Assembly (NCBI GenBank): GCA_951812345.1
Contig: OX638295.1
Span: 1,250,759 to 1,314,758, forward strand
Reading direction: 5' to 3'
DNA length: 64,000 nt
Origin: Rhodothermales bacterium
GTDB taxonomy: Bacteria; Bacteroidota; Rhodothermia; Rhodothermales; VXPQ01
A program made the position numbers and the translations under genes. The notes under the pieces are model-generated. The model saw only the letters and a list, made by a program, of their open reading frames with translations. It searched no databases and was not told the origin of the DNA. Position 1 is the first letter of the stretch. Every line of letters starts with the position of its first letter. Positions 9,722 to 39,570 of the stretch are shown piece by piece.

Positions 9722-11806
9722 TTATTGCTGCTGGCGGAAACGACTGCGGAAGTCCTCGATATCCGCGTGTTCGCGCAGGGATGCAAGCCATTGTGTGCGT
9801 ACGGCGTTTTGCCGCTGCTGCAATAATTGCCGCCGGATATTTTCCTGTTCGTTTTCCGTGATAGGCGCCGGCTCGTTGATCTGGGTCACTCGCAGGGCGA
9901 AGGCGGTATTGTCTCCAGCGACAATGCCTGAGGAAGCTCCTGCTTCGAGAGCGAAAGCAGTGCCCACAAACAGAGGTTCTGCACCGAGCCCGGGTACCAC
10001 ATTCGATTCAAAGGTTACGAAGGCATTCTGCATCCGGATGCCGGGGATGCTCGAAAGATTGTCGAAGCCCCCTGCCTCGTAGGCGCGTTCCAGGCGCTCT
10101 ACCAGCACCTCTTTTTTCTTCTCGATATAGGTCCGGGGTTCTATTTCCGTTTGCACTTCCTCGAAAGGCTGGTAGCCCTCCGGTATAATGTCGTCGACAT
10201 GAACGGTGATAAAGGTTTCGTCCAGTTCGATGATGTCGCTTATATCGCCCTGCCCCGCCGTTTCGAGAAAGTCGAGCACGGCATACCCGCTGCCGATACC
10301 CGGAATGTTTACCTGTTCCTCTTCAACCCGGACCCGCTGAATGCTCATACCCATGCGTTGCGCTTCCTGGTCAAAATTCCCCGTCTCTTCCGCAAAGTAC
10401 CGGAGGTCTTCCAGTTGTTCCTGAAGCTGGTTGAGCGTGGCGACATTCGCGTCGATTTCCAGGGCGAAATCCGCGATGTTAACCTCGTTTTCCGCACGTG
10501 CGACGACAACAATCAGGTGATAACCGAACTGTGTTTTAATGGGGCCGACAACCTGGTCTGCGCGAGCCCCGAATGCCGCCTCTTCAAAGGGCGCCACCAT
10601 AACGCCGGGACCGAACCAGCCCAGGTCACCACCTTGTGCCGCCGAGGCGTCTTCGGAATATTGCCGGGCCATTTCCGCGAAATCAACCTCTCCCGACCGG
10701 ATGCGGTCTCGTATTCCGACCAATTGACTACGTATGTTCTCATCTTCTTCGGCGGCACGCAGCAATATATGGGATGCGCGTACGGCAACCTCTTCAGCCG
10801 GTCGTATGCCCCTGATCTTGATAAGGTGCGCCTCATTGCCCACAGCGACAGGGCCCAGCACCGACCCCTCTTCCGGGTTGGGGAAAGCCAATGCTGCGAT
10901 CTCCGTATCGAGGTCGCTTGCACCAAACCAGGCGTCGGAAAAGGGCCGCCGGGACACATTACGGAGGAGAAACAACGAATCGTCTTCCGCCGCGGCAAAA
11001 CTGTCCTTCATGCGTTCGAGTTCTGCAAAGACAGCGGCGGAATCTTCTGCGGAGGGCAACTTGGATTGCGAAACGTACGCTATGTCAAATGCGCGATTGC
11101 GAGCATACTCGTCCCGGTGGTCGTCATAAAATCTCCTCAGGTCACGCTCCGCAACCACCACGGAGTCGTTTGGAATGGACGCATACGGCAATCCCACCCA
11201 TTCCACATTCACGCTCCGGTTCTGGCGCAGGTATTCTTCCTCTACGTTACGATCAGTGATGTGCACCGTTGCCGAGATGAGGTTGTCCATCTTCTCCCGG
11301 CGGCGCTCCGAACGGAGATAATCCTCGATCTGAATCCAGTCCTGGCTGGCATCCGGATTGTCAATGAAATTTTGAAGAAGAGCCCGGTCCACATTCCCTT
11401 GCTCATCGCTGAAATACGAGCGGATGATCGCATGCGGATTGTCGCCTGTCACCATTTCGTAGATTTCCTCGGCGGTAACCGAGATGCCCAGGCGATTCAT
11501 CTCATGTTCGCGTAACTTGTTTTCGACCAGGGACTGGAAAATGAGCTCCCGCTGTTGCTCCAGCAGCTGCGGGGGCATCGTTTCCCCCGTCTGATCCTGA
11601 TATTGCTGTGCCTGTTGCTGTACTGTCTGGACATATGTCTGATAGGGGACGGGATCTCCATCCACGACGGCAATGTCTACCCCGGTACCGACGCCGACGG
11701 CATCCAGACCGCCGGAATCCTGGAGCACCCAGATTACTCCGAACGCGAACACCAGAATCCACAGGACGATGCCTGTGTTCTCGCGCATCTTGTTCATTGT
11801 GCCCAT
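9722..11806 (-). CDS. ppiD: PpiD-like membrane-anchored peptidyl-prolyl isomerase/foldase
   Basis: A 694-residue protein with a short cytoplasmic start, one transmembrane segment ([17 protein letters not shown], about residues 13-29), a SurA/PpiD-type N-terminal helical domain and a parvulin domain around residues 345-435 ([37 protein letters not shown]). A second, divergent rotamase-like region follows. PpiD sits in the inner membrane facing the periplasm and helps newly exported proteins fold. MGTMNKMRE offers two possible ATG starts (11806 or 11797). Element copy C lies in the divergent gap to the mtfA-like gene. Confidence 0.88.
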
Positions 11807-11900
11807 CAGATCACCTCGTTGAAGATACTATCCATGAGTAGGTTTGCCGGATCGGTACTACAAACCCTCTTTCACTACTCGGCAGCTGTTTTGTTCGTTG

Positions 11901-12137
11901 AAGGATACTCTGATCAAAACCACTTCGCTCAGCACGTCGCTTTTGTGCGTAAAGAACATCATGATAATACTGCGGATGCGGGGCGTCGCACGCGTGACGC
12001 GCCCTTCGGGAGGCTGCGAGGGGTGCGCTGGTCGCGTCATTCCTCATTATGTGCAGCCTGCCACACTGCTTCGTCATTCCTTGCCAGCGCACCCCTCTCA
12101 GCCTCTGAGATTTGCGGACTTAATCAGAGTATCCTTA
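11901..12137 (+). repeat. Palindromic GGATAC element, copy C (full length, about 237 bp)
   Basis: One of two full-length copies. It starts AAGGATACTCTGATCAAAAC and ends GCGGACTTAATCAGAGTATC. Inside lies a long-armed inverted repeat, GAGGGGTGCGCTGG (about 12018-12031) against CCAGCGCACCCCTC (about 12084-12097), plus the CTTCGTCATTCCTTGCCAG segment shared with copies G, H, J and L. It fills the divergent gap between ppiD and the MtfA-type gene. Confidence 0.92.
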
Positions 12138-12150
12138 AAAACACAGAATC

Positions 12151-13011
12151 GTGCAAGTAGCGAATCGGAAAACCGTAGCGTTTTCGTTAACGCTGGCAGC
12201 GCTGACGGGCGGGGGCGTAGGCATCGCGACTGAGCCGTCCACTTCGGCGGGTTGGATATTCGGCGCAGCAACGTTTATCCTTGTGGCGGGCTGGGGAGCA
12301 CGGTATCCATTGCGTCGCTTCCTGGTCGTACGCAAGCCGCTGTCCCCGGCTGTGGCCGCGTGGCTAAGGGCGGATTTCCCCTTCTATCGTTATGTCGAAC
12401 GGGAGCGATTCGAGCGCGACATAAAAATTATCCTTGCCGAATGGACATTTGAAGGCGTAGGAGAAGCGGAGGTTACCGATGAGCTGAAGGCGGCGGTAGC
12501 GGCCGGCGCCGCGCTCCTGTTACATGGACGGCCGGATCGGGAATGGTCTTCGCGCCGAACGATACTGTTGTACCCGGACCGTTTCGACGATGAGTATACA
12601 GCCGGCGAAGAAGGGGAATTCGAAGGCATGGCGCATTCGCAGGGGCCGGTGATTCTTGCTGTGGAATCCGTTCGTCAGGGATGGGAAAATCCGGCGGACG
12701 GCCACAATGTGGTGCTGCATGAAATGGCCCACCTGCTCGATTACGAAAGCGAATTTTCCAATGGGACGCCGTCCCTCGTTGCTTCAGAGTCTGCGGCGGC
12801 TTGGCGGGAACTGGTGCGCAAGGAGATACGGCGCGTGCGTATAGGGCGATCTATCCTGCGTCGTTACGCGGCTCAGAACCCGGCGGAATTATTCGCCGTA
12901 GCCGTGGAGAATTTTTTCGAACGTCCCGAGCTCATGGCAAGGAGACATCCGGAATTGTTTGCGGCGCTCAGGAATATTTTCCGGATCGATCCGCTGACAT
13001 GGGGTCCGTGA
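12151..13011 (+). CDS. mtfA: MtfA-type (M90 family) zinc peptidase
   Basis: A 286-residue protein with a hydrophobic N-terminus (residues about 8-50, one or two membrane segments) and a metallopeptidase domain. The zinc motif HEMAH is at residues 190-194, with the supporting glutamate likely in ELFAVAVENFFERP. E. coli MtfA controls glucose uptake through Mlc; that partner is not visible here, so only the peptidase call is safe. The start is GTG 12151, which lies only 14 bp after element copy C, so the promoter is probably inside the element. Confidence 0.82.
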   Translation: MQVANRKTVAFSLTLAALTGGGVGIATEPSTSAGWIFGAATFILVAGWGARYPLRRFLVVRKPLSPAVAAWLRADFPFYRYVERERFERDIKIILAEWTFEGVGEAEVTDELKAAVAAGAALLLHGRPDREWSSRRTILLYPDRFDDEYTAGEEGEFEGMAHSQGPVILAVESVRQGWENPADGHNVVLHEMAHLLDYESEFSNGTPSLVASESAAAWRELVRKEIRRVRIGRSILRRYAAQNPAELFAVAVENFFERPELMARRHPELFAALRNIFRIDPLTWGP

Positions 13012-13046
13012 ACGGTGCGTGTCGATGCGCCATGCGTTCAGCGCAA

Positions 13047-13307
13047 TCATTCCTCGCCGAGATCAACATGCACGAACCGTCGTCCTGCATGACCGCGCGA
13101 GAAGCGTACCGTGCCGCTCGACTTGGCGAACAGCGTGTCGTCGCCGCCGTGACCGACATTGCGCCCGGGGTGAAACCGGGTTCCGCGCTGACGCACGATA
13201 ATGCCGCCGGCCTGGATGGATTGGCCGGCATAGACTTTCACCCCCAGCATTTTGGGGTTCGAGTCACGGCCGTTCTTGGTGGAGCCTACGCCTTTTTTAT
13301 GCGCCAT
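13047..13307 (-). CDS. rpmA: Ribosomal protein L27
   Basis: An 86-residue L27 of the large ribosomal subunit, near the peptidyl-transferase centre. The N-terminus [16 protein letters not shown], the [10 protein letters not shown] motif and the [10 protein letters not shown] stretch are diagnostic. There is no Firmicute-type N-terminal cleavage extension. It follows rplU by about 50 bp in the usual rplU-rpmA order. Confidence 0.97.
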
Positions 13308-13357
13308 GACGGCTTTTCCTGTTTAGTGGTAAAAAAACGCTCTGTCGAAGCAGGATT

Positions 13358-13972
13358 TCAGGAAGAGGCTTCGTTTTCGGGAGGTATACTCTCCGCAGCG
13401 GGTTTCTTTGCGGTCGTTGCCTTTGCGGCGGGCTTCTTTGCGGTCGTTGCCTTTGCAGCGGGCTTCTTCGCGGTCGTTGCCTTTGCGGCGGGCTTCTTTG
13501 CGGTCGCTGCCTTTGCAGCGGGTTTCTTCGCGGTCGTTGCCTTTGCAGCGGGCTTCTTCGCGGTCGTTGCCTTTGCAGCGGGCTTCTTCGCGGTCGTTGC
13601 CTTTGCGGCGGGCTTCTTCGCGGTCGTTGCCTTTGCGGCGGGCTTCTTTTCCTTCTCTTCGCCGAAGGCAAGCGCCCCGATTTCAATACGCGTATAGGGC
13701 TGGCGATGCCCGCGCTTTACCTTGAACCGCTTACGCCTTTTCTTGCGGAAGACAAGTATTTTATCGCCCTTGACATGCTCGAGGATCGTCGCATTGACCG
13801 AGGCGTCGGGTACGACCGGCGTTCCGATCTGTACCCCATCGTTTCCGGCTATCAGGAGCACACGGTCCAGTGTAACGGAGTCGTTCGCATTTCCTTCCAG
13901 ATGCGGGACGATCAGCCGATCTTTTTCGCGGACTGAAAATTGCTTACCGGAAATTTCTACGATGGCATACAT
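13358..13972 (-). CDS. rplU: Ribosomal protein L21 with a repetitive Lys/Ala/Pro-rich C-terminal tail
   Basis: Residues 1-103 are a normal L21 (MYAIVEISGKQFSVREKD, then KRRKRFKVKRGHRQPYTRIEI), a 23S rRNA-binding protein. About 100 further residues follow, made of eight units of KKPAAKATTA (one reads KKPAAKAATA) and a last partial unit before an acidic SIPPENEASS end. Family members usually stop near 103 residues. The tail is encoded by near-identical 30-bp units and resembles histone H1-like basic tails. It forms an operon with rpmA; upstream is the divergent FAH-family gene. Confidence 0.95.
   Translation of the reverse strand: MYAIVEISGKQFSVREKDRLIVPHLEGNANDSVTLDRVLLIAGNDGVQIGTPVVPDASVNATILEHVKGDKILVFRKKRRKRFKVKRGHRQPYTRIEIGALAFGEEKEKKPAAKATTAKKPAAKATTAKKPAAKATTAKKPAAKATTAKKPAAKAATAKKPAAKATTAKKPAAKATTAKKPAAKATTAKKPAAESIPPENEASS
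13399..13649 (-). repeat. 30-bp tandem repeat encoding the L21 tail
   Basis: Eight near-perfect 30-bp units and a partial one, differing at a few positions (GCAGCG/GCGGCG, TTTCTT/CTTCTT). They lie in frame inside rplU and encode the 10-residue KKPAAKATTA unit, so copy-number changes by slippage would keep the frame. Confidence 0.95.
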
Positions 13973-14014
13973 ATTCTTTTCTCTTCTTTTGGGCGCCGGA
14001 TTGGGTACCGACGC

Positions 14015-14177
14015 GAGAGTATCCTTAAAGACAACGGATTCATGCCTGCGGCGTTGAAGGTGTTTTCGGAGCCTGCTTTAGCGGGGCTTGTCTTTCACCT
14101 TCCAGGTGCCGCATTGAATGCGCAGCACAATCTAACAAAGTAAAAAATGTCGTGTTCCGTATAGAATATCCTGATCC
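14015..14177. repeat. Possible relic of the palindromic GGATAC element, copy D
   Basis: Only end-like pieces are visible: GAGAGTATCCTTA at about 14015-14027 and TATAGAATATCCTGATC at about 14161-14177. They sit in the divergent gap between rplU and the FAH-family gene, the same type of location as other copies. The inner sequence does not match the family, so this may be chance. Confidence 0.35.
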
Positions 14178-14207
14178 TGTGCAGAAAAGCCTCTTGCTAA
14201 GAATGTC

Positions 14208-14867
14208 ATGAACATACATCTGCCCATGTCCGGTTTGAAGGTCCGGCCGGGAAAAGTATTGTGTATCGGACGTAACTATGCCGCGCACGCTGCCGAAATG
14301 CAAAGCGACATCCCTGTGGCGCCGGTAATTTTTCTAAAACCTCCGACCGCCCTGCTCGGGCATGGCGGAGAGGTACTGCTGCCACCCGCCTCGAAGGATG
14401 TGCATCATGAGGTGGAGCTGGTTGTCGCCATTGGAAAAAAGGGAAAGAACATTCCCGTCTCCGATGCACTGAATCATGTGGAGGGATACGCGCTCGGAAT
14501 CGATATGACGGCTCGGGATCTGCAGTCTGAAGCAAAGCGATGCGGTCTTCCCTGGTCGGTCGCAAAGGGATTCGATACCTTTGCCCCATTGGGGACTTTC
14601 ACACCCGCTCGCGATATTTCCGATCCTCGGCGCCTCCGTATTTCCCTGCACGTGAATGGTATGCTGCGGCAGCAGGGGAGCGTTTCCCGGATGTTGTTTG
14701 GCGTGGACGAACTCGTTGCGTATGCCTCGTCCATTTTTACGTTGATGCCTGGCGATCTTATGTATACGGGTACGCCGGAGGGCGTTGCGGCCGTGGAAGA
14801 CGGTGACCGGCTTGTGGCGACGGGAACAGGCTTGCAGGACCTGGCGGTGGATGTGCGGCGCATATAA
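14208..14867 (+). CDS. Fumarylacetoacetate hydrolase family protein
   Basis: A 219-residue protein with the compact FAH fold. Visible motifs are KVLCIGRNYAAHAAEM near the N-terminus, FLKPPTALLGHGG, the metal-binding HHEVELVVAIG, and the C-terminal PGDLMYTGTPEGV. Members of this short form include acylpyruvate hydrolases and oxaloacetate decarboxylases (FAHD1-like) and 2-hydroxyhepta-2,4-diene-dioate isomerases; the sequence does not choose between them. It converges on greA with 20 bp between stops and has no catabolic neighbours. Confidence 0.88.
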   Translation: MNIHLPMSGLKVRPGKVLCIGRNYAAHAAEMQSDIPVAPVIFLKPPTALLGHGGEVLLPPASKDVHHEVELVVAIGKKGKNIPVSDALNHVEGYALGIDMTARDLQSEAKRCGLPWSVAKGFDTFAPLGTFTPARDISDPRRLRISLHVNGMLRQQGSVSRMLFGVDELVAYASSIFTLMPGDLMYTGTPEGVAAVEDGDRLVATGTGLQDLAVDVRRI

Positions 14868-14887
14868 GCCCGGAAGGGGGCTGCGCA

Positions 14888-15352
14888 TTACCGGCTTATT
14901 TCGAGGACTTCCATTTTCACCTTACCTGCCGGGACGTCAACCTCTATGATGTCGCCGGGCGCCTTTCCAAGAAGTGCTTTCCCTACCGGGCTTGTCACGG
15001 AGATTTTCCCTGTTCGGATATCTGCCTCGGCTGCCGAGACCAGTTGGAAGGTTTGCTCGGCGCCCGTCCCATGATTTTTTACGCGGACGTTCGATAGAAT
15101 ATATGCCTTCTCGGGGTCTACCTGTTTCTCGTCCACGAGGCGGGCTCGCGAGACCGTCGTTTCCATTTTGGCAATCCGCGCTTCGAGAAGCCCCTGAGCT
15201 TCCTTTGCGGCGTCATATTCTGCATTTTCGGACAGGTCGCCCTTTTCCCGTGCTTCCTGAATCGATCTGGAAATACGGGGACGCTCTTTTGTCTTCAGGA
15301 AGCGCAACTCTTCCCTGAGATTGTCGAGTCCCTCCTGGGTCAGGTATACGAT
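14888..15352 (-). CDS. greA: Transcription elongation factor GreA (non-canonical start)
   Basis: GreA rescues backtracked RNA polymerase by stimulating transcript cleavage. The coiled-coil tip (ARIAKMETTVSRARLVDE) and the preceding GDLSENAEYDAAKEAQ are diagnostic, and the C-terminal FKBP-like domain is complete. The conserved N-terminus YLTQEGLDNLREEL is encoded in frame, but no ATG, GTG or TTG precedes it. The only canonical start (TTG 15307) would delete it. I therefore extend to ATC 15352, which gives 154 residues, close to the family's 155-160. An ATC start, or a sequencing error, must be assumed. Confidence 0.85.
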   Translation of the reverse strand: MVYLTQEGLDNLREELRFLKTKERPRISRSIQEAREKGDLSENAEYDAAKEAQGLLEARIAKMETTVSRARLVDEKQVDPEKAYILSNVRVKNHGTGAEQTFQLVSAAEADIRTGKISVTSPVGKALLGKAPGDIIEVDVPAGKVKMEVLEISR

Positions 15353-15541
15353 ATTTGAGCCCTGCGCGGAGATACGCGTTCCGAATGGTTGACGAAGAGA
15401 TGAGGGACCGGACAGGTGACAATGCGGGGAACGTTACGGTAGGTGTACGGGTCGCGGAAACACGCAAAAAAACGACCTCAGAGAGACCCGGTAAACGTAT
15501 ATCCGGCATGATCTGTTCCGATCGCCTCCGATCGCTTCCGA

Positions 15542-16075
15542 TCACCAGCCCGGTCTCTTTGCAGGCTTCCGTTCGGGTTTGTCCCGATCTTTATCCCGCG
15601 TTGTCCGACTGCGACCGCCGGGATTGTCGAGCACACGGCGAGAGGTCCAATAGGCGGATTGCCAGTATGCCTCATCCATGGAAGACAGCGTAACGCCTTG
15701 CGATGTGGAAGCGTGCGCGAAGGTCCCGTTTCCCAGATAGACGCCCACGTGTCGCGAGGCGCCCGGAGGCCGGAAAAAGACAAGGTCTCCAGCCTTCAGT
15801 TGCGCCGGCTGCACCCGGCGCCCTTCCCGGACCTGATCTGCGGTGGAGCGAGGAATATCGACCCCGAAGGCATCGGCGTATACGTGCTGCACGAATGCCG
15901 AACAATCGATTCCCCTTCTCGTCGTGCCGCCCAGCAGATACGGGGTTCCTCGCCAGCGGGCGTACTCGGCGCGAATGCGCGTTTCAACGGCCCCCGATTT
16001 GTTTGTCGCCCCGGACGATGCGCACCCGGAAACAAGCAGGAAAAGCATTACCCCCGTTAAGGATACTCTGATCAA
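15542..16075 (-). CDS. NlpC/P60-family lipoprotein peptidase, start inside element copy E
   Basis: A cell-wall cysteine peptidase. The catalytic Cys is in GIDCSAFVQHVY and the His in SRHVGVYLGNGTFAHAS; the fold covers about residues 30-140 and is followed by a basic, low-complexity tail. Such enzymes cut gamma-D-Glu-diaminopimelate bonds. The lipobox LVSGC lies only nine residues after the ATG at 16048, too short for a signal. TTG 16075 gives MIRVSLTGVMLFLLVSGC, a complete lipoprotein signal, and lies inside palindromic element copy E. GTG 16093 is a further alternative. Confidence 0.82.
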   Translation of the reverse strand: MIRVSLTGVMLFLLVSGCASSGATNKSGAVETRIRAEYARWRGTPYLLGGTTRRGIDCSAFVQHVYADAFGVDIPRSTADQVREGRRVQPAQLKAGDLVFFRPPGASRHVGVYLGNGTFAHASTSQGVTLSSMDEAYWQSAYWTSRRVLDNPGGRSRTTRDKDRDKPERKPAKRPGW

Positions 16076-16205
16076 AACCGCTTCGCTCAGCACGTCATGT
16101 TTGCAAATCATAATTCCATCGTCGGAATCAGGGGTAAGCACTGCGAATTCGGCGCGTCGCGGACGTGACGCGCTCTTCGGGAGGTTGCGGACTTAATCAG
16201 AGTAC
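16057..16205 (+). repeat. Palindromic GGATAC element, copy E (about 149 bp)
   Basis: Left end TTAAGGATACTCTGATCAA followed by AACCGCTTCGCTCAGCACGT; right end TTGCGGACTTAATCAGAGTA, where the last bases (TCCTTA) are lost. An inner hairpin GCGCGTC/GACGCGC lies at about 16152-16172. The GTGCGCTGG-type arms of copy C are missing. The left terminus overlaps the start of the NlpC/P60 lipoprotein gene. Confidence 0.9.
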
Positions 16206-16520
16206 AGAATCTACGATTCTTCGGAGAATTCCTCATAACGGCATTTCCGCCGGGTGCGGGGCGTGTGGGGGATTGAGTAATTTCTATACCTTTTTCGCAC
16301 CTTTTCTACTCAAATTCGAGAAAATGTCCTGAAAATGGCAGGGGAAAACCGCCTGTGGAAACACTTCCTGCGTCGCCTGGCGTTTTCATGCGTCGCGGGA
16401 TCAAAGGCAAGGCATACAGGTACCTGTATCCTGAAAATACGGCATATGTATTTTGCAGTGCATACGCGAGCAGTCTGCTGCGCCGGTATCCTTTATCGAT
16501 CCATCCAACCTTGCGGTATC
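16206..16520. other. Intergenic stretch without a recognisable gene
   Basis: About 315 bp between element copy E and the bacilliredoxin start. Short open frames cross it in several phases, but none has a convincing start, length or protein pattern. It should contain the bacilliredoxin promoter; I cannot point to one with confidence. Confidence 0.5.
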
Positions 16521-17027
16521 ATGCCTTATCCCGAAGCCCTTGTAACGCCCATGCGGCAGGAACTCGCGCAACTGGGCGTCGAAGAATTGCTCGATGCAGA
16601 GGCGGTCGAGCAATCTCTTGAGGAAAGCAAGCAGGGAACTACGCTTGTCGTCATCAACACGGTATGCGGCTGCGCTGCTTCAAGCGCTCGTCCGGCGGTA
16701 GCCATGGCGCTCCGTAATCCTGCGCAACCCGATCGGAAAGTAACGGTGTTTGCCGGTCAGGACCTCGAAGCCACCGAGCGCCTGCGCGAGTATCTTGTGG
16801 GCATTCCTCCCTCGTCGCCGTTCTTCGCCCTGCTGAAGGAAGGCGAGCCGGTGTATGTCATGGAGCGTCGCCATATCGAGGGGCGCAGCGCCAGTGCGAT
16901 AGCCGCCGATCTTGTACATGCATTCGACATGCATTGCAATGGCGCGCAGTCCGACGCCGCCGAAAGCCCGGAGGCTGTGCATTCGGAGGGGAACGGATTG
17001 CCGCCTACGTTTCGCTCTATCCTGTAA
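16521..17027 (+). CDS. Bacilliredoxin (BrxA/BrxB, YphP/YqiW family)
   Basis: A 168-residue thioredoxin-fold protein starting at ATG 16521 (MPYPEALVTPMRQEL, the family's typical N-terminus). The redox CGC motif is visible in NTVCGCAASSARP, and GIPPSSPFFALLKEG follows as usual. In Firmicutes these proteins remove bacillithiol from oxidised proteins; in Bacteroidota the same family is common. The frame is open further upstream, but that part has no homology. The C-terminal 25 residues are a non-conserved tail. Confidence 0.92.
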   Translation: MPYPEALVTPMRQELAQLGVEELLDAEAVEQSLEESKQGTTLVVINTVCGCAASSARPAVAMALRNPAQPDRKVTVFAGQDLEATERLREYLVGIPPSSPFFALLKEGEPVYVMERRHIEGRSASAIAADLVHAFDMHCNGAQSDAAESPEAVHSEGNGLPPTFRSIL

Positions 17028-17041
17028 CGGACAGTTTATGT

Positions 17042-17088
17042 GCGAACGTGAAGTGCTGAGCGAAGCGGTTTTGTTCAGAGTATCCTGC
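17042..17088 (-). repeat. Palindromic GGATAC element, copy F (left half only)
   Basis: Read on the minus strand it begins AGGATACTCTGAACAAAACC and continues CGCTTCGCTCAGCACTTCAC, then stops matching the family. The right half is absent. It lies between the converging bacilliredoxin and flippase genes. Confidence 0.8.
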
Positions 17089-17094
17089 ACCTGA

Positions 17095-18600
17095 TTATTG
17101 TTCTTCTTTTCCGTCGTTCTGGCCCGGCTCCGGGGTTTCGTTTACCCCCGGCCAGATTCTTTCCCGCCATACGACGAAGCCTAAATAGGCTGCGCCCGCT
17201 GCGATCGCTGTCAGGGCAACCGCCCACCCAGGCCATACGCCCCGGATCAGCCAGACGCAAGCCACCGGGGGCAGTGCGATAAGGGCATAGCGAATATAGG
17301 CGCTTCCGGCGCGCCGCAGGGATACTCCCGCATATTTCAGCATTGCGGCGAGCTGGAAGATGCGCGCGAATGCCCCGGCTCCGGCCATCAGGCCCATCGT
17401 AAGCAGGACGTTGCCTGTACTTCCACCCCAAAAAAGCGCTGCCGCGAGAAGCAGGAACGATCCGATACTGATTCCCAATTCCGCGCGTTGCAGTTCGAGA
17501 ATGTCGAAGATGCGCGTGAGCGGGGAGGCTACAGCGTTCAAAAAGAACCAGCAGGCAAGGTATTGTTCGTAGGTACCGGCTGCGCGCCAGCCGGCTCCGA
17601 AGACGAAAGCAAACAATTCCGGCCCGGCAGCAATAAGCAGCATGCAGGGAAACATCCCGATCATGACCAGACGCGCATGCACGCTTTCCGTAAAGCCGGC
17701 CAGTCGGTTTTCCCGGTGCGCTGTTGCGCCGTCCACGAAAAAAACCTGCGCTACCGCTGTTCCGATGAGGCTCAAGGGGATCGCCAGCGCGGCGAAGGCG
17801 CGTCCGTACAGGCCTGTTACTTCCCATCCGAAATAGACCGGGAGCAGGAGCACCGGCAGGCGGCCCAATACGGTATTCAGCAGAGAGGAAGGCATAGCGT
17901 ACAGGGGAAACCGCCGGTAGCGCCGGGCCACGGATCGGAGTTCGCTCATCGAAGGGCACTGGATGCGAAGCGCCCTGGTGCGTCGCAGGAGCGCCGCCCC
18001 GAAATACGCCGCCCCCAATGCCTGTCCGGCTATGAACCCTCCAATCAATCCGCCTGCGCCGAGGGTCGTGCCTGCACCAAGGCCGATGCGGCTGGAAATG
18101 ATGGCTATCTTGTTGGTTGCTTCCGCGCCGGTAATCGTCCGAAACGCCCGTTTACGCGTGAGCCATGCTTCGGCGAGTTTTCCGAACCGTATCAGCAGCA
18201 ACGCAGGCGCAACCAGCCACAACCAGACAGCGATCTCTTCAGGGGCGCCCAGCAGGGAGGTAAGTTCCCGGCTCCATAGCGAGGCCACGGCTACCATGGC
18301 CGTGACGCCTATCGCAAGGATTCCCGCCAACCACAGGACGGAGCGCGCCTTTTGGTCGCGTTCGGGCAGCATGACGGCTTCTTCGTAGCGCAAGGAGGCA
18401 AGCGCCGTCAGGACACTTACGATCGTTACGAAATAATCGGAAATCCCAAAGGCCTGGGTTGTGAATAAGCGGGTGAGCACCGGAAGCGCCAGATACGAGA
18501 TGACGAAGGTGACCGCCGTACCGGAAAGCAGGGTCATTACCGGCCCGCGGAATCCTTCCCGCGCATACAGCTGTCCGATCCGGGTCCGTAGGTTCTTCAT
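17095..18600 (-). CDS. Wzx-type polysaccharide flippase (MOP/MATE superfamily)
   Basis: A 501-residue integral membrane protein with about 12-14 hydrophobic helices. The N-terminus (VTFVISYLALPVLTRLFT, then FGISDYFVTIVSVLTALAS) is the pattern of O-antigen/teichoic-acid lipid-carrier flippases. It likely moves lipid-linked glycan across the inner membrane. Its ATG overlaps the stop of the upstream membrane-protein gene by three bases (ATGA type), which suggests translational coupling, and it is last in a three-gene surface-glycan operon. Confidence 0.88.
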   Translation of the reverse strand: MKNLRTRIGQLYAREGFRGPVMTLLSGTAVTFVISYLALPVLTRLFTTQAFGISDYFVTIVSVLTALASLRYEEAVMLPERDQKARSVLWLAGILAIGVTAMVAVASLWSRELTSLLGAPEEIAVWLWLVAPALLLIRFGKLAEAWLTRKRAFRTITGAEATNKIAIISSRIGLGAGTTLGAGGLIGGFIAGQALGAAYFGAALLRRTRALRIQCPSMSELRSVARRYRRFPLYAMPSSLLNTVLGRLPVLLLPVYFGWEVTGLYGRAFAALAIPLSLIGTAVAQVFFVDGATAHRENRLAGFTESVHARLVMIGMFPCMLLIAAGPELFAFVFGAGWRAAGTYEQYLACWFFLNAVASPLTRIFDILELQRAELGISIGSFLLLAAALFWGGSTGNVLLTMGLMAGAGAFARIFQLAAMLKYAGVSLRRAGSAYIRYALIALPPVACVWLIRGVWPGWAVALTAIAAGAAYLGFVVWRERIWPGVNETPEPGQNDGKEEQ

Positions 18601-32774: not shown

Positions 32775-35700
32775 ATGAGAACTATATCCTGGATCGTCGC
32801 GGGCATGGCGGCTATAACGGTCTCGCTCTTGACGCTGAGCGCGTGCGACGACGGGGCGCTGACGGGCCTGGACGATGTCGATCCGTCTGCGGCGGCTAAT
32901 GCGCGTGTCGCCGTCGGGGACAGTACGGCCCGTGCAGGCGGCGTTCCAGGAGAGGGCGCGTCTTCCCTGGATCGGTATGCGCTTTTGGGTCGGATCTTGA
33001 GCGCCGACGGCAATCCGGATAGCGTGCGCGTACATGTCAAATCCTGGCATACGGATTATAACGAGACCGGTTACGCTACGCTCGGTATACCTGCGAAGGG
33101 TACGATATACCACTGGGGGGCCGCGCATTCGGAGGGGGTAGATATCCATGGAGAGGGAGGCGTTCCCGCGCTTGGACGGGATGCTTTGTACGCCCTCTCT
33201 TTCGATAGTCCTGCGAGAGGCGATGCGTTGCTGGTCCTTTTGCCCTCCGCTGTCGATGTCGATACGTATTTCACATGGGATAACGGCGATATCGCTATTA
33301 CGTCCCAGGCCATCGGGGCCAGGACGCATATCCTTGAGGATATATCGATCTATAACGATATTGGGTGGAGAAAAGCCGTTTGCGCGGGCGGTCGGTTCGG
33401 ACGAATCGTTTTCGAGGGGGATAGCCTGGATGTGTCTACCGTGTTGCACCGTCGTTTTTATGGCGCCATATCCGGCGAAGCGGAAGGGGAGATACCGAAA
33501 GACGTTTCGGGCTGCGGAACGTCCTCGGATGCTTTCGATGTGCAATTGCTGGGATTCGCGGACGACGATGCGTACCAGATGATCGATTGGCGTCCGATCG
33601 TTTCGGAGTCGATATCCGAATCGGAATCGGTATTGGTTTCTAAATCTAAATCCGAATCGGTATCGGAATCGGAATCGGTTTCTGTATCGGAATCGGTATC
33701 TGCGAAGAGTTCGACGGCGAGTACGACCGCGAGCGCCAGCGGCAACCGATTGAACCGTTCAAAACCGGCGGGCCATGCGCCTCCTTCGGTGAATTTGTCG
33801 GCTTCTCCGGGCAAGATCGACCTCGGAAATAGTTCGACGCTTACCTGGTCGTCGTCGAACGCTACGAGCGTATCGATAAGTCCGGATGTCGGCCCGGATA
33901 TCGGTACGGTTGCGACGTCGGGGCAGCGATCGGTTTCCCCGACGACTTCGACGACGTACACGATCGTGGCGAAAGGTCCGGGAGGAAGCAAATCGGACCG
34001 TGCAACCGTGAAGGTTCATATGCCTCCTTCGGTGAGTTTCTCCGCGTCTCCGGGCACGATTAACCTCGGCGGCAGTTCGACGCTTGGCTGGTCGTCCGAG
34101 CACGCTACGCTCGTATCGATCGGTCCGGATATCGGTTCGGTTGGGGCGTCGGGAGAGCGATCGGTTTCTCCGGATAGCACGACGACGTACACGATCGTGG
34201 CCACGGGCGCCGACGGAACGTCTACGCAGCGGGCAGAAGCAACCGTAACGGTTAATCGGCCGCCGACGGCCAACGCAGGCGCTGACCAGACGGTGGACGA
34301 GGGGGATACGGTGACGCTATCCGGTTCGGGTAGTACGGACCCGGAGGGCGCGACGCTGACCTACGCCTGGACGGCTCCGGCAGGGACCGTGCTGTCGAGT
34401 ACCACGGAGCCGTACGAGCGGACGTTCACGGCGCCGACGCAGCTTGTGTCGGACTCGGTGCTGACATTCACGCTGACGGTGAACGACGGGGCGCAAGACT
34501 CCGAGGCGGACACGGTGGCGGTGACGGTGACGGCGGACGCTCAGAGCGACAGAGCGGCGCTGGTCGCGCTCTACAACGCGACCGACGGGGCCAATTGGCA
34601 AACCAATACCAACTGGAACAGTAGCGCCGCCATCGATACGTGGTTCGGCGTCAGGACCGACGACGCCGGACGGGTGGTTTCTCTGGATCTCTTCCGCAAC
34701 GACCTTTCGGGCTCGATCCCTGCGGCGTTGGGCGACCTGGCCAACCTCGAATACCTGGCTCTCTCCAACAACTCCCTTTCGGGCTCGATCCCGGCGGCGT
34801 TGGGCGACTTGACCAGCCTCACGAACCTGAATCTCTTCCGCAACTCCCTTTCGGGTTCGATCCCTGCGGAGTTGGGCGACCTCGCCAACCTCACGAGCCT
34901 GTCGATCGGTGAGAACTCCTTTTCGGGATCGATCCCTGCGGCGTTGGGCGACCTCGCCAACCTCGACTGGCTGAATCTCGCTAGCAACTCCCTTTCGGGC
35001 TCGATCCCTGCGGCGTTGGGCGACCTCGCCAACCTCACGAACCTGAATCTCAGTGGCAACTCCCTTTCGGGCTCGATCCCGGCGGCGTTGGGCGACCTCG
35101 CCAACCTCAGGAGGCTGTGGATCGGTGAGAACGACCTTTCGGGTTCGATCCCTGCGGCGTTTGTCAACCTGGACAATCTCATTCTCTTGCAAGTCGACAA
35201 CGAGCTGTGCGTGCCGGGAGATACCGCATTCCAGCAATGGCTTGGCGATCTCGATGAGTTCGAGGGCGACAGCGACAACATCTGCAATCAGCCGCCTGCA
35301 TGCGATACGATTTCGGATCGGACGCTGAACGAGGGCGGTTCGGGCCTCGAGATCGATCTGTCGAGCTCCTGCAGCGATCCGGAGGGCGAGGATCTGGCCT
35401 ACACGGCGATATCGTCGGCCAGCGATAAGGCGAGCGTAAGCATCTCGGGTAGCACGCTAACGATCACGCCTGTGGCGGCCGGTGAGACGACCGTCGAGGT
35501 GACGGCGACGGATCCGCACGAGGCGAGCGACACGGTGTCCTTCGACGTGACGGTTAATGCGCCTCCTGAGGTGAGTTTGTCGGCGTCTCCGGACAAGATC
35601 GCTCTCGGGGGTAGTTCGACGCTTGGCTGGAAGTCTGCGAACGCCGATAGCGTATGGATCGATCAGGGCATCGGTTCGGTTGCGCTATCGGGGTCGCAAT

Positions 35701-38700
35701 CGGTTTCTCCCGATAGCACGACGACGTACACGATCGTGGCCACGGGCGCCGGCGGAACGGATACGGACCAGGCGAGCGTGACGGTCAAAGCGCCTCCTCC
35801 CGTGGTGAATTTGTCGGCGTCTCCGGGCAAGATCGACCTCGGGGGTAGTTCGACGCTCGAGTGGTCGTCGTCGAACGCTACGAGCGTATCGATAAGTCCG
35901 GATATCGGCCCGGATATCGGTACGGTTGCGACATCGGGTAAGCGATCGGTTTCTCCGACGAGTTCGACGACGTACACGATCATGGCGACAGGTCCGGGAG
36001 GAAGCAAATCGGACCGTGCAACCGTGAAGGTTCATGTGCCTCCTTCGGTGAGTTTCTCCGCGTCTCCGGATACGATTAGCCTCGGCAGCAGTTCGACGCT
36101 TGTCTGGTCGTCCGAGCACGCTACGCTCGTATCGATCGGTCCGGATATCGGTTCGGTTGGGGCGTCGGGAGAGCGATCGGTTTCTCCGGATAGCACGACG
36201 ACGTACACGATTACGGCTACGGGCGCCGACGGAACGTCTACGGAGCGGGCAGAAGCAACCGTAACGGTTAATCGGCCTGCTTCGGTCACGTTTTCGGCCT
36301 CGCCGGGCACGATTTGCAAAGGGGTATCGTCAACGCTCAGCTGGTCGTCGGAGCACGCTACGAGCGTATCGATCGATCAGGGCATCGGTACGGTTGGGGC
36401 GTCGGGAGAGCGATCGGTTTCTCCGGATAGCACGACGACCTACATGATCGTGGCCACGGGCGCCGGCGGAACGGATACGGACGAGGCGACCGTGACGGTC
36501 GATCAACTTCCTTCGGTGAATTTGTTTGCGTCTGCGGACACGATTAACGTCGGGGATAGTTCGACGCTCAGCTGGTCGTCGGAGCATGCTACGAGCGTAT
36601 CGATCGATCAGGGCATCGGTACGGTTGCGACGTGGGGATCGGAAGAGGTTTCTCCTGCGAGCACGACAACCTACACGATCACGGCGACAAGTCCGTGTGG
36701 CGCCGTCACGGACACGGTCCTGGTGACGGTTAATCATAACGACAGAGCGGCGCTGGTCGCGCTCTACGACTCGACCGGCGGGGCCAATTGGAAAACCAAT
36801 ACCAACTGGAAAAGTAGCGCCGCCATCGGTACGTGGTACGGCGTCGCGACCGATGACGCCGGACGGGTGGTTTCTCTGAATCTCGACCGCAACTCCCTTT
36901 CGGGATCGATTCCGGCGGCGCTGGGCGACTTGACCAACCTCGAGATACTCTATCTCCAATACAACTCCCTTTCGGGATCGATTCCGGCGGCGTTGGGCGA
37001 CTTGACCAACCTCGAATACCTGAATCTCCGCAGCAACTCCCTTTCGGGCTCGATCCCTGCGGAGTTGGGCGACTTGACCAGCCTCGAATACCTGAATCTC
37101 ATGCACAATTCCCTTTCGGGTTCGATCCCGACGGAGTTGGGCGACTTGACCAACCTCGTGAACCTGAATCTCGGTTACAACTCCCTTTCGGGCTCGATCC
37201 CGACGGAGTTGGGCGACTTGACCAACCTCGAGGGACTGTATCTCCAAGCGAGCTCCCTTTCGGGCTCGATCCCTGCGGAGTTGGGCGACTTGACCAACCT
37301 CACGAGACTGGATCTCGGTTTTAACTCCCTTTCGGGTTCGATCCCTGCGGCGTTGGGCGACTTGACCAACCTCGATGGACTGTATCTCTTCGGCAACGAC
37401 CTTTCGGGTTCGATCCCTGCGGCGTTGGGCGATTTGACCAACCTCACGAGACTGGAGCTCAACAAAAACGACCTTTCGGGGTCGATTCCGGCGGAGTTGG
37501 GCGACTTGACCGGCCTCACGAGACTGAATCTCGATTTCAACGACCTTTCGGGTTCGATCCCTGCGGCGTTGGGCGACTTGACCAACCTCACGAGACTGGA
37601 GATCAACAACAACTCCCTTACGGGCTCGATCCCTGCGGAGTTGGGAGATTTGACCAACCTCAAACTACTGTGGCTCCACGACAACTCCCTGACGGGATCG
37701 ATCCCTGCGGCGTTTGTCAACTTGAGCAATCTATGGAACTTTTCTGTCGACAACGGGCTGTGCGTCCCGGGAGATAACGCGTTCCAGCAATGGCTTGGCG
37801 ATCTTACTATATTCTCAGGCGACAGCGACAACATCTGCAATCAGCCTCCTGCATGCGATATGATTTCGGATCGGACGCTGGACGAGGGCGGTTCGGGCGT
37901 CGAGATCGATCTGTCGAGCTCCTGCAGCGATCCGGAGGACGAGGATCTGGCCTACACGGCGACATCGTCGGCCAGCGATAAGGCGAGCGTAAGCATCTCG
38001 GGTAGCACGCTAACGATCACGCCTGTGGCGGCCGGTACGACGACCGTCGAGGTGACCGCGACGGATCCGCACGAGGCGAGCGACACGGTGTCCTTCGACG
38101 TGACGGTTAATCATAACGACAGAGCGGCGCTGGTCGCGCTCTACGACTCGACCGGCGGGGCCAATTGGGACGACAATACCAACTGGAAAAGTAGCGCCGC
38201 CATCGGTACGTGGTACGGTGTCGCGACCGATGACGCCGGACGGGTGGTTTCTCTGGATCTCGGTTCCAACTCTCTTTCTGGATCGATCCCTGCGGCGTTG
38301 GGCGACTTGACCAACCTCGAGATACTCTATCTCCAATACAACTCCCTTTCGGGATCGATTCCGGCGGCGTTGGGCGACTTGACCAACCTCGAATACCTGA
38401 ATCTCCGCAGCAACTCCCTTTCGGGCTCGATCCCTGCGGCGTTGGGCGACTTGACCAGCCTCGAATACCTGAATCTCATGCGCAATTCCCTTTCGGGTTC
38501 GATCCCGACGGAGTTGGGCGACTTGACCAACCTCGTGAACCTGAATCTCGGTTACAACTCCCTTTCGGGCTCGATCCCGACGGAGTTGGGCGACTTGACC
38601 GACCTCGAGGGACTGTATCTCCAAGCGAGCTCCCTTTCGGGATCGATCCCGGCGGAGCTGGGCGACTTGACCAACCTCACGAGACTGGATCTCGGTTTCA

Positions 38701-39221
38701 ACTCCCTTTCGGGTTCGATCCCTGCGGAGCTGGGCGACTTGACCAACCTCGATGGACTGTATCTCTTCGGCAACGACCTTTCGGGTTCGATCCCGGCGGC
38801 GTTGGGCGACTTGATCAACCTCACGAGACTGGAGCTCAACAACAACGACCTTTCGGGGTCGATTCCTGCGGAGTTGGGCGACTTGACCAACCTCGAACAC
38901 CTGCGTCTCGAAAGCAACTCCCTGACGGGATCGATCCCGGCGGAGTTGGGCGACTTGACCAACCTTGAATGGCTGTGGCTCCAAGACAACTCCCTTTCGG
39001 GTTCGATCCCGGCGGAGTTGGGCGACTTGATCAACCTCGAACAACTGTATCTCGACGACAACTCGCTGACGGGCTCGATCCCTGCGGAGTTTATCAACTT
39101 GAGCAATCTATCGGACTTTTCTGTAGACGACGAGCTGTGCGTGCCGGGAGATACCGCATTCCAGCAATGGCTTGGCGATATCGATGAATTCGAGGGCGAC
39201 AGCGACAACATCTGCAACTGA
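32775..39221 (+). CDS. Giant LRR/Ig-repeat lipoprotein (2148 residues)
   Basis: The signal MRTISWIVAGMAAITVSLLT ends in lipobox LSAC (Cys24), so the protein is lipid-anchored. A unique domain (about 25-275) and a Ser-rich linker with SES/SVS repeats (about 277-322) follow. Next come two Ig-like repeats (PPSV..SAS), a PKD-like domain, LRR block 1 (7 units), a cadherin-like domain, five Ig-like repeats, LRR block 2 (12 units), another cadherin-like domain, and LRR block 3 (12 units). The unit is plant-type, LSGSIPAALGDLTNL. Each block starts with a DRAALVALYD cap and ends in CVPGD..FQQWLGD..DNICN. Blocks 2 and 3 repeat at a 1377-bp spacing. GGAG precedes the ATG. Likely an adhesin or surface recognition protein. 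Confidence 0.9.
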   Translation: MRTISWIVAGMAAITVSLLTLSACDDGALTGLDDVDPSAAANARVAVGDSTARAGGVPGEGASSLDRYALLGRILSADGNPDSVRVHVKSWHTDYNETGYATLGIPAKGTIYHWGAAHSEGVDIHGEGGVPALGRDALYALSFDSPARGDALLVLLPSAVDVDTYFTWDNGDIAITSQAIGARTHILEDISIYNDIGWRKAVCAGGRFGRIVFEGDSLDVSTVLHRRFYGAISGEAEGEIPKDVSGCGTSSDAFDVQLLGFADDDAYQMIDWRPIVSESISESESVLVSKSKSESVSESESVSVSESVSAKSSTASTTASASGNRLNRSKPAGHAPPSVNLSASPGKIDLGNSSTLTWSSSNATSVSISPDVGPDIGTVATSGQRSVSPTTSTTYTIVAKGPGGSKSDRATVKVHMPPSVSFSASPGTINLGGSSTLGWSSEHATLVSIGPDIGSVGASGERSVSPDSTTTYTIVATGADGTSTQRAEATVTVNRPPTANAGADQTVDEGDTVTLSGSGSTDPEGATLTYAWTAPAGTVLSSTTEPYERTFTAPTQLVSDSVLTFTLTVNDGAQDSEADTVAVTVTADAQSDRAALVALYNATDGANWQTNTNWNSSAAIDTWFGVRTDDAGRVVSLDLFRNDLSGSIPAALGDLANLEYLALSNNSLSGSIPAALGDLTSLTNLNLFRNSLSGSIPAELGDLANLTSLSIGENSFSGSIPAALGDLANLDWLNLASNSLSGSIPAALGDLANLTNLNLSGNSLSGSIPAALGDLANLRRLWIGENDLSGSIPAAFVNLDNLILLQVDNELCVPGDTAFQQWLGDLDEFEGDSDNICNQPPACDTISDRTLNEGGSGLEIDLSSSCSDPEGEDLAYTAISSASDKASVSISGSTLTITPVAAGETTVEVTATDPHEASDTVSFDVTVNAPPEVSLSASPDKIALGGSSTLGWKSANADSVWIDQGIGSVALSGSQSVSPDSTTTYTIVATGAGGTDTDQASVTVKAPPPVVNLSASPGKIDLGGSSTLEWSSSNATSVSISPDIGPDIGTVATSGKRSVSPTSSTTYTIMATGPGGSKSDRATVKVHVPPSVSFSASPDTISLGSSSTLVWSSEHATLVSIGPDIGSVGASGERSVSPDSTTTYTITATGADGTSTERAEATVTVNRPASVTFSASPGTICKGVSSTLSWSSEHATSVSIDQGIGTVGASGERSVSPDSTTTYMIVATGAGGTDTDEATVTVDQLPSVNLFASADTINVGDSSTLSWSSEHATSVSIDQGIGTVATWGSEEVSPASTTTYTITATSPCGAVTDTVLVTVNHNDRAALVALYDSTGGANWKTNTNWKSSAAIGTWYGVATDDAGRVVSLNLDRNSLSGSIPAALGDLTNLEILYLQYNSLSGSIPAALGDLTNLEYLNLRSNSLSGSIPAELGDLTSLEYLNLMHNSLSGSIPTELGDLTNLVNLNLGYNSLSGSIPTELGDLTNLEGLYLQASSLSGSIPAELGDLTNLTRLDLGFNSLSGSIPAALGDLTNLDGLYLFGNDLSGSIPAALGDLTNLTRLELNKNDLSGSIPAELGDLTGLTRLNLDFNDLSGSIPAALGDLTNLTRLEINNNSLTGSIPAELGDLTNLKLLWLHDNSLTGSIPAAFVNLSNLWNFSVDNGLCVPGDNAFQQWLGDLTIFSGDSDNICNQPPACDMISDRTLDEGGSGVEIDLSSSCSDPEDEDLAYTATSSASDKASVSISGSTLTITPVAAGTTTVEVTATDPHEASDTVSFDVTVNHNDRAALVALYDSTGGANWDDNTNWKSSAAIGTWYGVATDDAGRVVSLDLGSNSLSGSIPAALGDLTNLEILYLQYNSLSGSIPAALGDLTNLEYLNLRSNSLSGSIPAALGDLTSLEYLNLMRNSLSGSIPTELGDLTNLVNLNLGYNSLSGSIPTELGDLTDLEGLYLQASSLSGSIPAELGDLTNLTRLDLGFNSLSGSIPAELGDLTNLDGLYLFGNDLSGSIPAALGDLINLTRLELNNNDLSGSIPAELGDLTNLEHLRLESNSLTGSIPAELGDLTNLEWLWLQDNSLSGSIPAELGDLINLEQLYLDDNSLTGSIPAEFINLSNLSDFSVDDELCVPGDTAFQQWLGDIDEFEGDSDNICN
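36733..39115 (+). repeat. In-frame segmental duplication of LRR blocks 2 and 3
   Basis: The segment beginning CATAACGACAGAGCGGCGCT at about 36733 recurs at about 38110, exactly 1377 bp (459 codons) later. The first eight LRR units of the two blocks are nearly identical at the DNA level. The last four units differ more. The duplication is tandem, in frame and apparently recent. Confidence 0.88.
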
Positions 39222-39570
39222 TGCGCCGATGGCCAACACAGGCGCCGACCGGACGGTGGACGAGGGAGATACGGTGATGCTCTCCGGTTCGGGTACGGAC
39301 CCGGAGGGCGCGACGCTGACCTACGCCTGGGGCGCTCTGGCGGGTATCGCGCTGTCGAGCTCCACGGCGCAGTCACCGACGTTCACGGCGCCGACGCAGC
39401 TGCTGACGAAATCGTCGGTGTTGGAATTCACGCTGACGGTGCACGCCTTCTCGGCGGCCTGCTTATTCCAGGATTGGATACCGGATGCACCTCCAAACGC
39501 TCGGCGGGTTCGGCCAGCATGCTATCGCCTCGCATGGCGGCAAGGCGCCAGCCATTTCAGCATGTCTTAA
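39222..39570 (+). pseudogene. Decayed PKD-domain tail of the LRR lipoprotein, shifted frame
   Basis: Directly after the TGA of the LRR gene, the +1 frame encodes DAPMANTGADRTVDEGDTVM, TDPEGATLTYAWGALAG and PTFTAPTQLL..VLEFTLTV. This is the same PKD-type domain as the one at 34261-34540. Similarity ends at about 39445. The original gene seems to have continued here and lost its C-terminus to a frameshift or recombination. From 39571 to 39801 I see no gene. Confidence 0.75.

Follow-up and report, generated by a model that had tools for sequence, protein, structure and literature searches.

An IS5-related MITE within the signal-peptide codons of a MepS-like lipoprotein gene, and the start codon that it may supply

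Introduction

The question raised by this locus is where translation of a lipoprotein begins when a mobile repeat lies across the start of its gene. In the window, by which we mean the whole 64,000-nucleotide stretch of Rhodothermales DNA that was analysed, an initial annotation proposed that one repeat copy (copy E) is an insertion that became coding sequence for an NlpC/P60 lipoprotein, supplying its start codon (TTG 16075) and the N-terminus of its signal peptide, and probably also its promoter or ribosome-binding region. The genome that holds the window is called G000 here, and its congeners G001 to G005.

Results

The gene and its neighbours

The minus strand at 15542-16111 encodes an NlpC/P60 protein with the lipobox LFLLVSGC. 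The surrounding features are as follows.

15635-15949, minus strand: NlpC/P60 peptidase domain, MepS/Spr-like (PF00877, E=1.5e-32)
14888-15352, minus strand: greA, the downstream neighbour, in the conserved order greA-nlpC-brxB
16521-17027, plus strand: brxB-like gene (PF06491), the divergent upstream neighbour
17047-17086, minus strand: partial copy of the same repeat as copy E, after brxB and inverted relative to E

Membership of the NlpC/P60 family follows from the domain match together with the catalytic cysteine (DCS) and two histidines (RHVG, AHAS), which were located by eye. The best NCBIfam match, NF008096 (PRK10838), has E=1.3e-47 over 123 residues, and its score of 162.1 bits falls below the MepS family cut-off of 186, so the protein is best called MepS-like only.

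The initial annotation had read the frame correctly to the base. On the minus strand it runs TTG(16075) ATC AGA GTA TCC TTA ACG GGG GTA ATG(16048) CTT TTC CTG CTT GTT TCC GGG TGC, with the terminus of copy E at 16060, and its translation is MIRVSLTGVMLFLLVSGC from TTG 16075 and MLFLLVSGC from ATG 16048. Further in-frame starts, absent from the initial annotation, lie within the element at ATG 16111 and GTG 16093, and GTG 16141 is also in frame.

Other genes in the window have peculiarities of their own. At the 5' end of greA (15350-15373, minus strand), no in-frame ATG, GTG or TTG precedes the conserved N-terminus (NIVYLTQEGLD) in G000, G001 and G002, and in G003-G005 the in-frame starts are only distant and non-conserved. 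A stop lying a few codons upstream shuts the frame in G001 and G002, where ATC and ATA codons are all that remains, and the ATC just before GTA-TAC (15352) is kept in six of six congeners; in most other families of the order an ATG lies a few codons before VYLT. This pattern suggests a genus-wide non-canonical AUC start for greA. Farther along the minus strand, 13358-13972 encodes ribosomal protein L21 (rplU, by eye), whose C-terminus is extended by a long series of AAKATTAKKP-type decapeptides in tandem, the product of 30-nt repeats in the DNA. The large repeat-rich coding region at 33600-39450, with 72-nt tandem repeats in three blocks and longer near-identical duplications, is probably a giant surface protein.

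A repeat family related to IS5

Copy E opens, in its first 20 bases (AGGATACTCTGATCAAAACC at 16060), with the end of a dispersed repeat. Allowing up to three mismatches, AGGATACTCTGATCAAAACC is found at 260 places in the 2.82-Mb G000 genome and the reversed control pattern at none. Each of the six genomes of the genus contains the repeat end AGGATACTCTGATYAA, which is absent from the 34 other genomes of the order that were searched, so that the abundance of the repeat and its genus-wide spread are far beyond chance.

Element statistics were drawn from a sample that comprised some 0.46 Mb of G000 and chosen loci in its congeners. This sample holds 52 full-length copies of about 256 bp (mode 256 bp) with AGGATACTCTGATYAA on both sides as 16-bp inverted ends, and shortened copies that arose by deletion are frequent. 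Of the 52 full-length copies, 27 are flanked by a 2-bp target duplication, in most cases TA, against 12.3 expected on re-pairing, and none of 10,000 re-pairings reached 27. G000 also contains three IS5-family transposase remnants, found with PF01609 and named by NF033581, all of them decayed; they end in exactly TTGATCAGAGTATCCT, a 16-nt end identical to that of the repeat. Against NF033581 (IS5-type DDE transposase, cut-off 140) one remnant (L165) scores 142.9 bits, above the cut-off, and another (L169) 134.6, just below it, a test that applies to the presumed parent and not to copy E. The repeat itself is short, lacks a transposase and is present in many copies. Given its inverted ends, its 2-bp duplication and an end identical to that of the IS5-family remnants, it is best described as an IS5-related MITE. 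An IS630/Tc1-mariner parent, considered on account of the TA duplication, was rejected, PF13358 (DDE_3) having no match in the six genomes, and an Rfam search of 11800-17300 returned no RNA family even at E<=1.

An in-frame ATG followed by an open frame to the left edge is present in 41 of the 52 copies (13.5 in shuffles; commonest position 20 codons in). Since the copies share ancestry, this count describes the family rather than 41 separate events. The outward start is therefore not an accident of copy E alone. We considered whether the element-encoded peptide is under selection and rejected this, the outward frame having no codon-position bias. Nor is there a clear trend for full-length copies to serve as in-frame protein inserts: the frame is open from end to end in 25 of 52 (17 in shuffles), copy length is not consistently in frame, and few copies lie inside long frames on both sides. 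Long open outward frames running into the element were seen at 54 of 135 element ends; when other ends were considered as gene fusions, the start codon lay just outside the element in the cases inspected by eye.

Several further copies deserve mention in their own right. MITE ends lie a few codons upstream of starts at L137:14512, L138:16736, L142:16396, L153:8317 and L155:16266, beside argS, pyrG, rsmD, sucC and a phosphomannomutase/glucomutase (named by eye), and probably form part of the 5' untranslated region of these five apparent housekeeping genes. Many contigs of G001 and G002 (e.g., L030, L031) start about 123 bases before a MITE end, which is near mid-copy, and this suggests that near-identical, recently active copies broke the assemblies. 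The sequences on either side of one full-length copy (L006:1489-1767) form an inverted repeat (GGCGGCGTTTA / TAAACGCCGC), which looks like insertion into the middle of a hairpin or terminator.

Copy E divides a native signal peptide

Comparison with G003, G004 and G005 resolves the locus into the following parts.

16060-16203, plus strand: copy E, a deletion derivative of the roughly 256-bp MITE, absent at this site in G003, G004 and G005
16058-16059, plus strand: TA at the left edge, half of a probable TA target duplication (TA is the commonest 2-bp duplication)
16205-16260 (about), minus strand: native 5' region, conserved in alignment with G003, G004 and G005 and in place upstream of the insertion
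16022-16060, minus strand: native hydrophobic core and lipobox, LTGVMLFLLVSGC, following the element junction

All three orthologues carry an empty site and begin with a normal lipoprotein signal (MRN-P-K...LTG-x-x-LFLLVSGC), the native N-termini being MRNPPKNRRFCLLTGLALFLLVSGC, MRNSPKKHKLCTLTALVLFLLVSGC and MRNFPKKRTCSPLTGLVLFLLVSGC. In the window the native ATG 16236 and its basic n-region, MRNSPKNRRFCTL, conserved in the same three genomes, survive upstream of E. The order is MRNSPKNRRFCTL from ATG 16236, 144 bases of element and then LTGVMLFLLVSGC; the locus has gained about 140 bases net, which breaks the native frame. Because three orthologues carry the empty site, E is a real insertion, and by the same alignment it sits within the signal-peptide codons, between the n-region and the h-region, a position that could not be recognised without relatives. 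This agrees with the view of E as an insertion turned coding. The initial annotation had proposed comparison with element-free orthologues, where an identical N-terminus would have counted against it; the N-termini of the three differ from the one in the window. With E between them, the native start and n-region no longer join the hydrophobic core and lipobox, and a lipoprotein made today would need both its start and its n-region from the element, as had been claimed.

That E was instead ancestral and lost in the relatives, with no insertion here, is hardly credible: the same site is empty in the three congeners, where the signal peptide is continuous and conserved, the remains of the split native n-region can be recognised in the window, and we found nothing that supports such a history.

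The two edges of E differ. Its left 16-bp inverted end is intact (16060-16075), and its right end is truncated, with ATCAGAGT followed by host sequence. Only the left TA of the target duplication remains. The right half appears to have been lost in a small deletion, for which an event between two GTA triplets would be the simplest account. The join at the lipobox side is GTTA/AGG, where the TTA leucine codon consists of the last element base and the TA of the target. Relative to its nearest relatives, the element-encoded part of E has a 9-nt deletion that keeps the frame.

Candidate starts

Three open reading frames describe the present arrangement.

16108-16236, minus strand: ORF1, native ATG 16236 and MRNSPKNRRFCTL followed by about 29 element codons; 42 aa, stop TGA 16110-16108
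15542-16111, minus strand: ORF2, the favoured form, from ATG 16111; 189 aa, MICKHDVLSEAVLIRVSLTGVMLFLLVSGC..., NlpC/P60 lipoprotein
15542-16075, minus strand: the form first proposed, from TTG 16075; 177 aa, MIRVSLTGVMLFLLVSGC...

Under the lipoprotein rules of PROSITE PS51257 (K or R in the first 7 residues, Cys at 15-35, and a lipobox), ATG 16111 (K4, Cys 30) and TTG 16075 (R3, Cys 18) pass. GTG 16093 (no K or R in the first 7), GTG 16141 (Cys 40) and ATG 16048 (Cys 9) fail, and the signal from the last is indeed too short, as the initial annotation held. The sampled stretches of G000 hold nine other lipoprotein-like ORFs; each has an ATG available as start, and their signals are 17-36 residues long. 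Long ORFs in G000 show no enrichment of Shine-Dalgarno motifs ahead of them, none of the candidate starts has one, and neither such motifs nor local folding discriminates among the candidates.

The TGA of ORF1 overlaps ATG 16111 (ATGA), and this ATG is in the NlpC frame. An ATGA overlap is the usual layout for termination and re-initiation, that is, translational coupling; by a rough estimate it could arise by chance in a few per cent of cases. Being an AUG codon that overlaps the stop of ORF1, ATG 16111 appears likelier as the start than TTG 16075; sequence alone cannot choose between the two. The n-region from ATG 16111 has a net charge of about 0 (K, R vs D, E), weaker than the native one.

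Translation from TTG 16075, inside the inverted end and independent of the native start, would give MIRVSLTGVMLFLLVSGC and is a variant of the same explanation that we consider unlikely. It offers the shortest acceptable signal, with Arg at position 3, a net charge of +1 and Cys at position 18, and every copy of that end has TTG or a near variant as this leucine codon (Leu in 49 of 49). However, UUG is a weaker start than AUG, no upstream motif supports it here, and it lies 33 nt downstream of the stop of the native ORF, whereas ATG 16111 overlaps that stop. Of the start first proposed, then, the acceptable signal inside the element stands, but the choice of TTG is not compelled, ATG 16111 being at least as good.

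The further proposal that the element serves as promoter or ribosome-binding region did not find support. Elements of this kind often carry promoters, as a matter of general knowledge, but the native 5' region is intact and conserved upstream, so that a new promoter is not needed, and Shine-Dalgarno motifs, as noted, are not enriched in this genome. We regard an element-borne promoter as very unlikely.

Selection on the gene after the insertion

The 172 codons after the junction contain no stop or frameshift, and their alignment with the three orthologues is free of gaps. Omega is 0.21 in the pairwise comparison with G003, and in a four-species codon model it is 0.255 on the G000 branch and 0.244 elsewhere; setting omega=1 for the whole G000 branch costs 7.1 log units, which rejects full neutrality. 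Averaged over the branch, the gene has thus been under purifying selection.

The insertion of E happened on this same branch. With 0.074 changes per site on the terminal branch of E relative to its nearest relatives, against about 0.207 neutral changes per site on the G000 branch, the age of E probably amounts to about one third of that of the branch, or to more. This age comes from 144 bp and a partial sample of copies, so that the test of selection after the insertion is only moderate. If the gene is taken to be neutral for the final 30-40% of the branch, the cost is 1.9-2.7 log units. This is moderate evidence that selection continued after the insertion, and the gene still looks functional.

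The alternative is that the insertion inactivated the gene, leaving a young pseudogene with an intact domain and no effective start or export signal. In G001 and G002 the NlpC/P60 gene is missing between greA and brxB (L162, L163), with about 300 bp remaining between the neighbours, although the order greA-nlpC-brxB is conserved across many families of the order. Because these two congeners lost the gene from a conserved locus, its loss is tolerated and it is dispensable in the genus, and a slow decay in G000 is possible for the same reason. The separation of the start and n-region from the h-region, the weak charge of the new n-regions, and candidate starts without a Shine-Dalgarno motif, though the genome does not seem to rely on one, would also fit a pseudogene. 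Set against these are the unraised omega on the branch, the uninterrupted 172 codons with the catalytic Cys and His kept, the cost of at least 1.9 log units for neutrality over 30% or more of the branch, and the fact that E itself diverged and gained indels while the gene stayed intact. We therefore think inactivation unlikely, though it deserves to be taken seriously.

Discussion

A MITE insertion split the signal peptide, and we consider it moderately probable that the lipoprotein is now made from an element-encoded start and n-region. In this scenario, after the split between G000 and G003 a MITE, presumably mobilised by an IS5-family element, inserted at a TA within the part of a MepS-like NlpC/P60 lipoprotein gene that encodes the signal peptide, parting the native start and n-region from the core and lipobox. 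Through its left inverted end the element would already have had an open frame reading outward, including an in-frame ATG (...M...ALSEAVLIRVS); that frame would then have come to lie in phase with the lipobox half. The native start would now give a 42-aa peptide ending in the TGA that overlaps ATG 16111. Ribosomes may then re-initiate at ATG 16111, or start independently at TTG 16075, to make a lipoprotein with an element-encoded n-region. The insertion, the empty sites, the split signal peptide, the layout of the ORFs and the branch-averaged purifying selection are seen directly in the sequences, whereas synthesis and export of the protein, and the choice of start codon, are inferred; the product from ATG 16111 would be marked by the N-terminal peptide MICKHDVLSEAV.

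A stronger form of this explanation holds that the element-encoded n-region works as an export signal in a translationally coupled two-ORF unit, and that the left end of the family is a portable start and n-region wherever it falls in phase. This is possible but doubtful.

MITEs are non-autonomous IS derivatives (PMC10969869), and the repeat in the window resembles them in being short and multi-copy, with inverted ends, a small target duplication, no transposase and an end shared with an autonomous-type IS of the same genome. Copy E differs in being shortened, with its right end and right target copy trimmed. The IS5 family (NF033581) is represented in G000 by the transposase remnants that share the end TTGATCAGAGTATCCT, whereas the element in the window has no transposase. 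With MepS/Spr-type endopeptidases the protein shares the NlpC/P60 domain and the lipobox, but its score is below the family cut-off.

The closest described case is that of the Rickettsia palindromic elements (RPE), MITE-like repeats of about 150 bp that end up as coding sequence of host genes (PMC10969869). RPE lie in frame within ORFs, each encoding a conserved peptide. Copy E is unlike them: the native frame stops inside it, and its outward frame shows no codon-position bias. Its insertion broke the frame, put element sequence in place of the start and signal n-region, and produced two overlapping ORFs. In the open-access literature we did not find a described MITE that supplies the n-region of a lipoprotein signal. 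As an instance of MITE exaptation the locus is good but ordinary, and it belongs to a kind of event already known.

Its value lies in showing, clearly resolved, the states before and after a bacterial mobile repeat turned into coding sequence: the empty sites, the old start that survives, the new start and selection on the gene are all legible in the sequence. It also indicates that automatic start calls near such repeats are unreliable. If our explanation is true, the signal-peptide n-region would be tolerant of replacement, and an element end with a start and one basic residue could be enough to rescue a gene.
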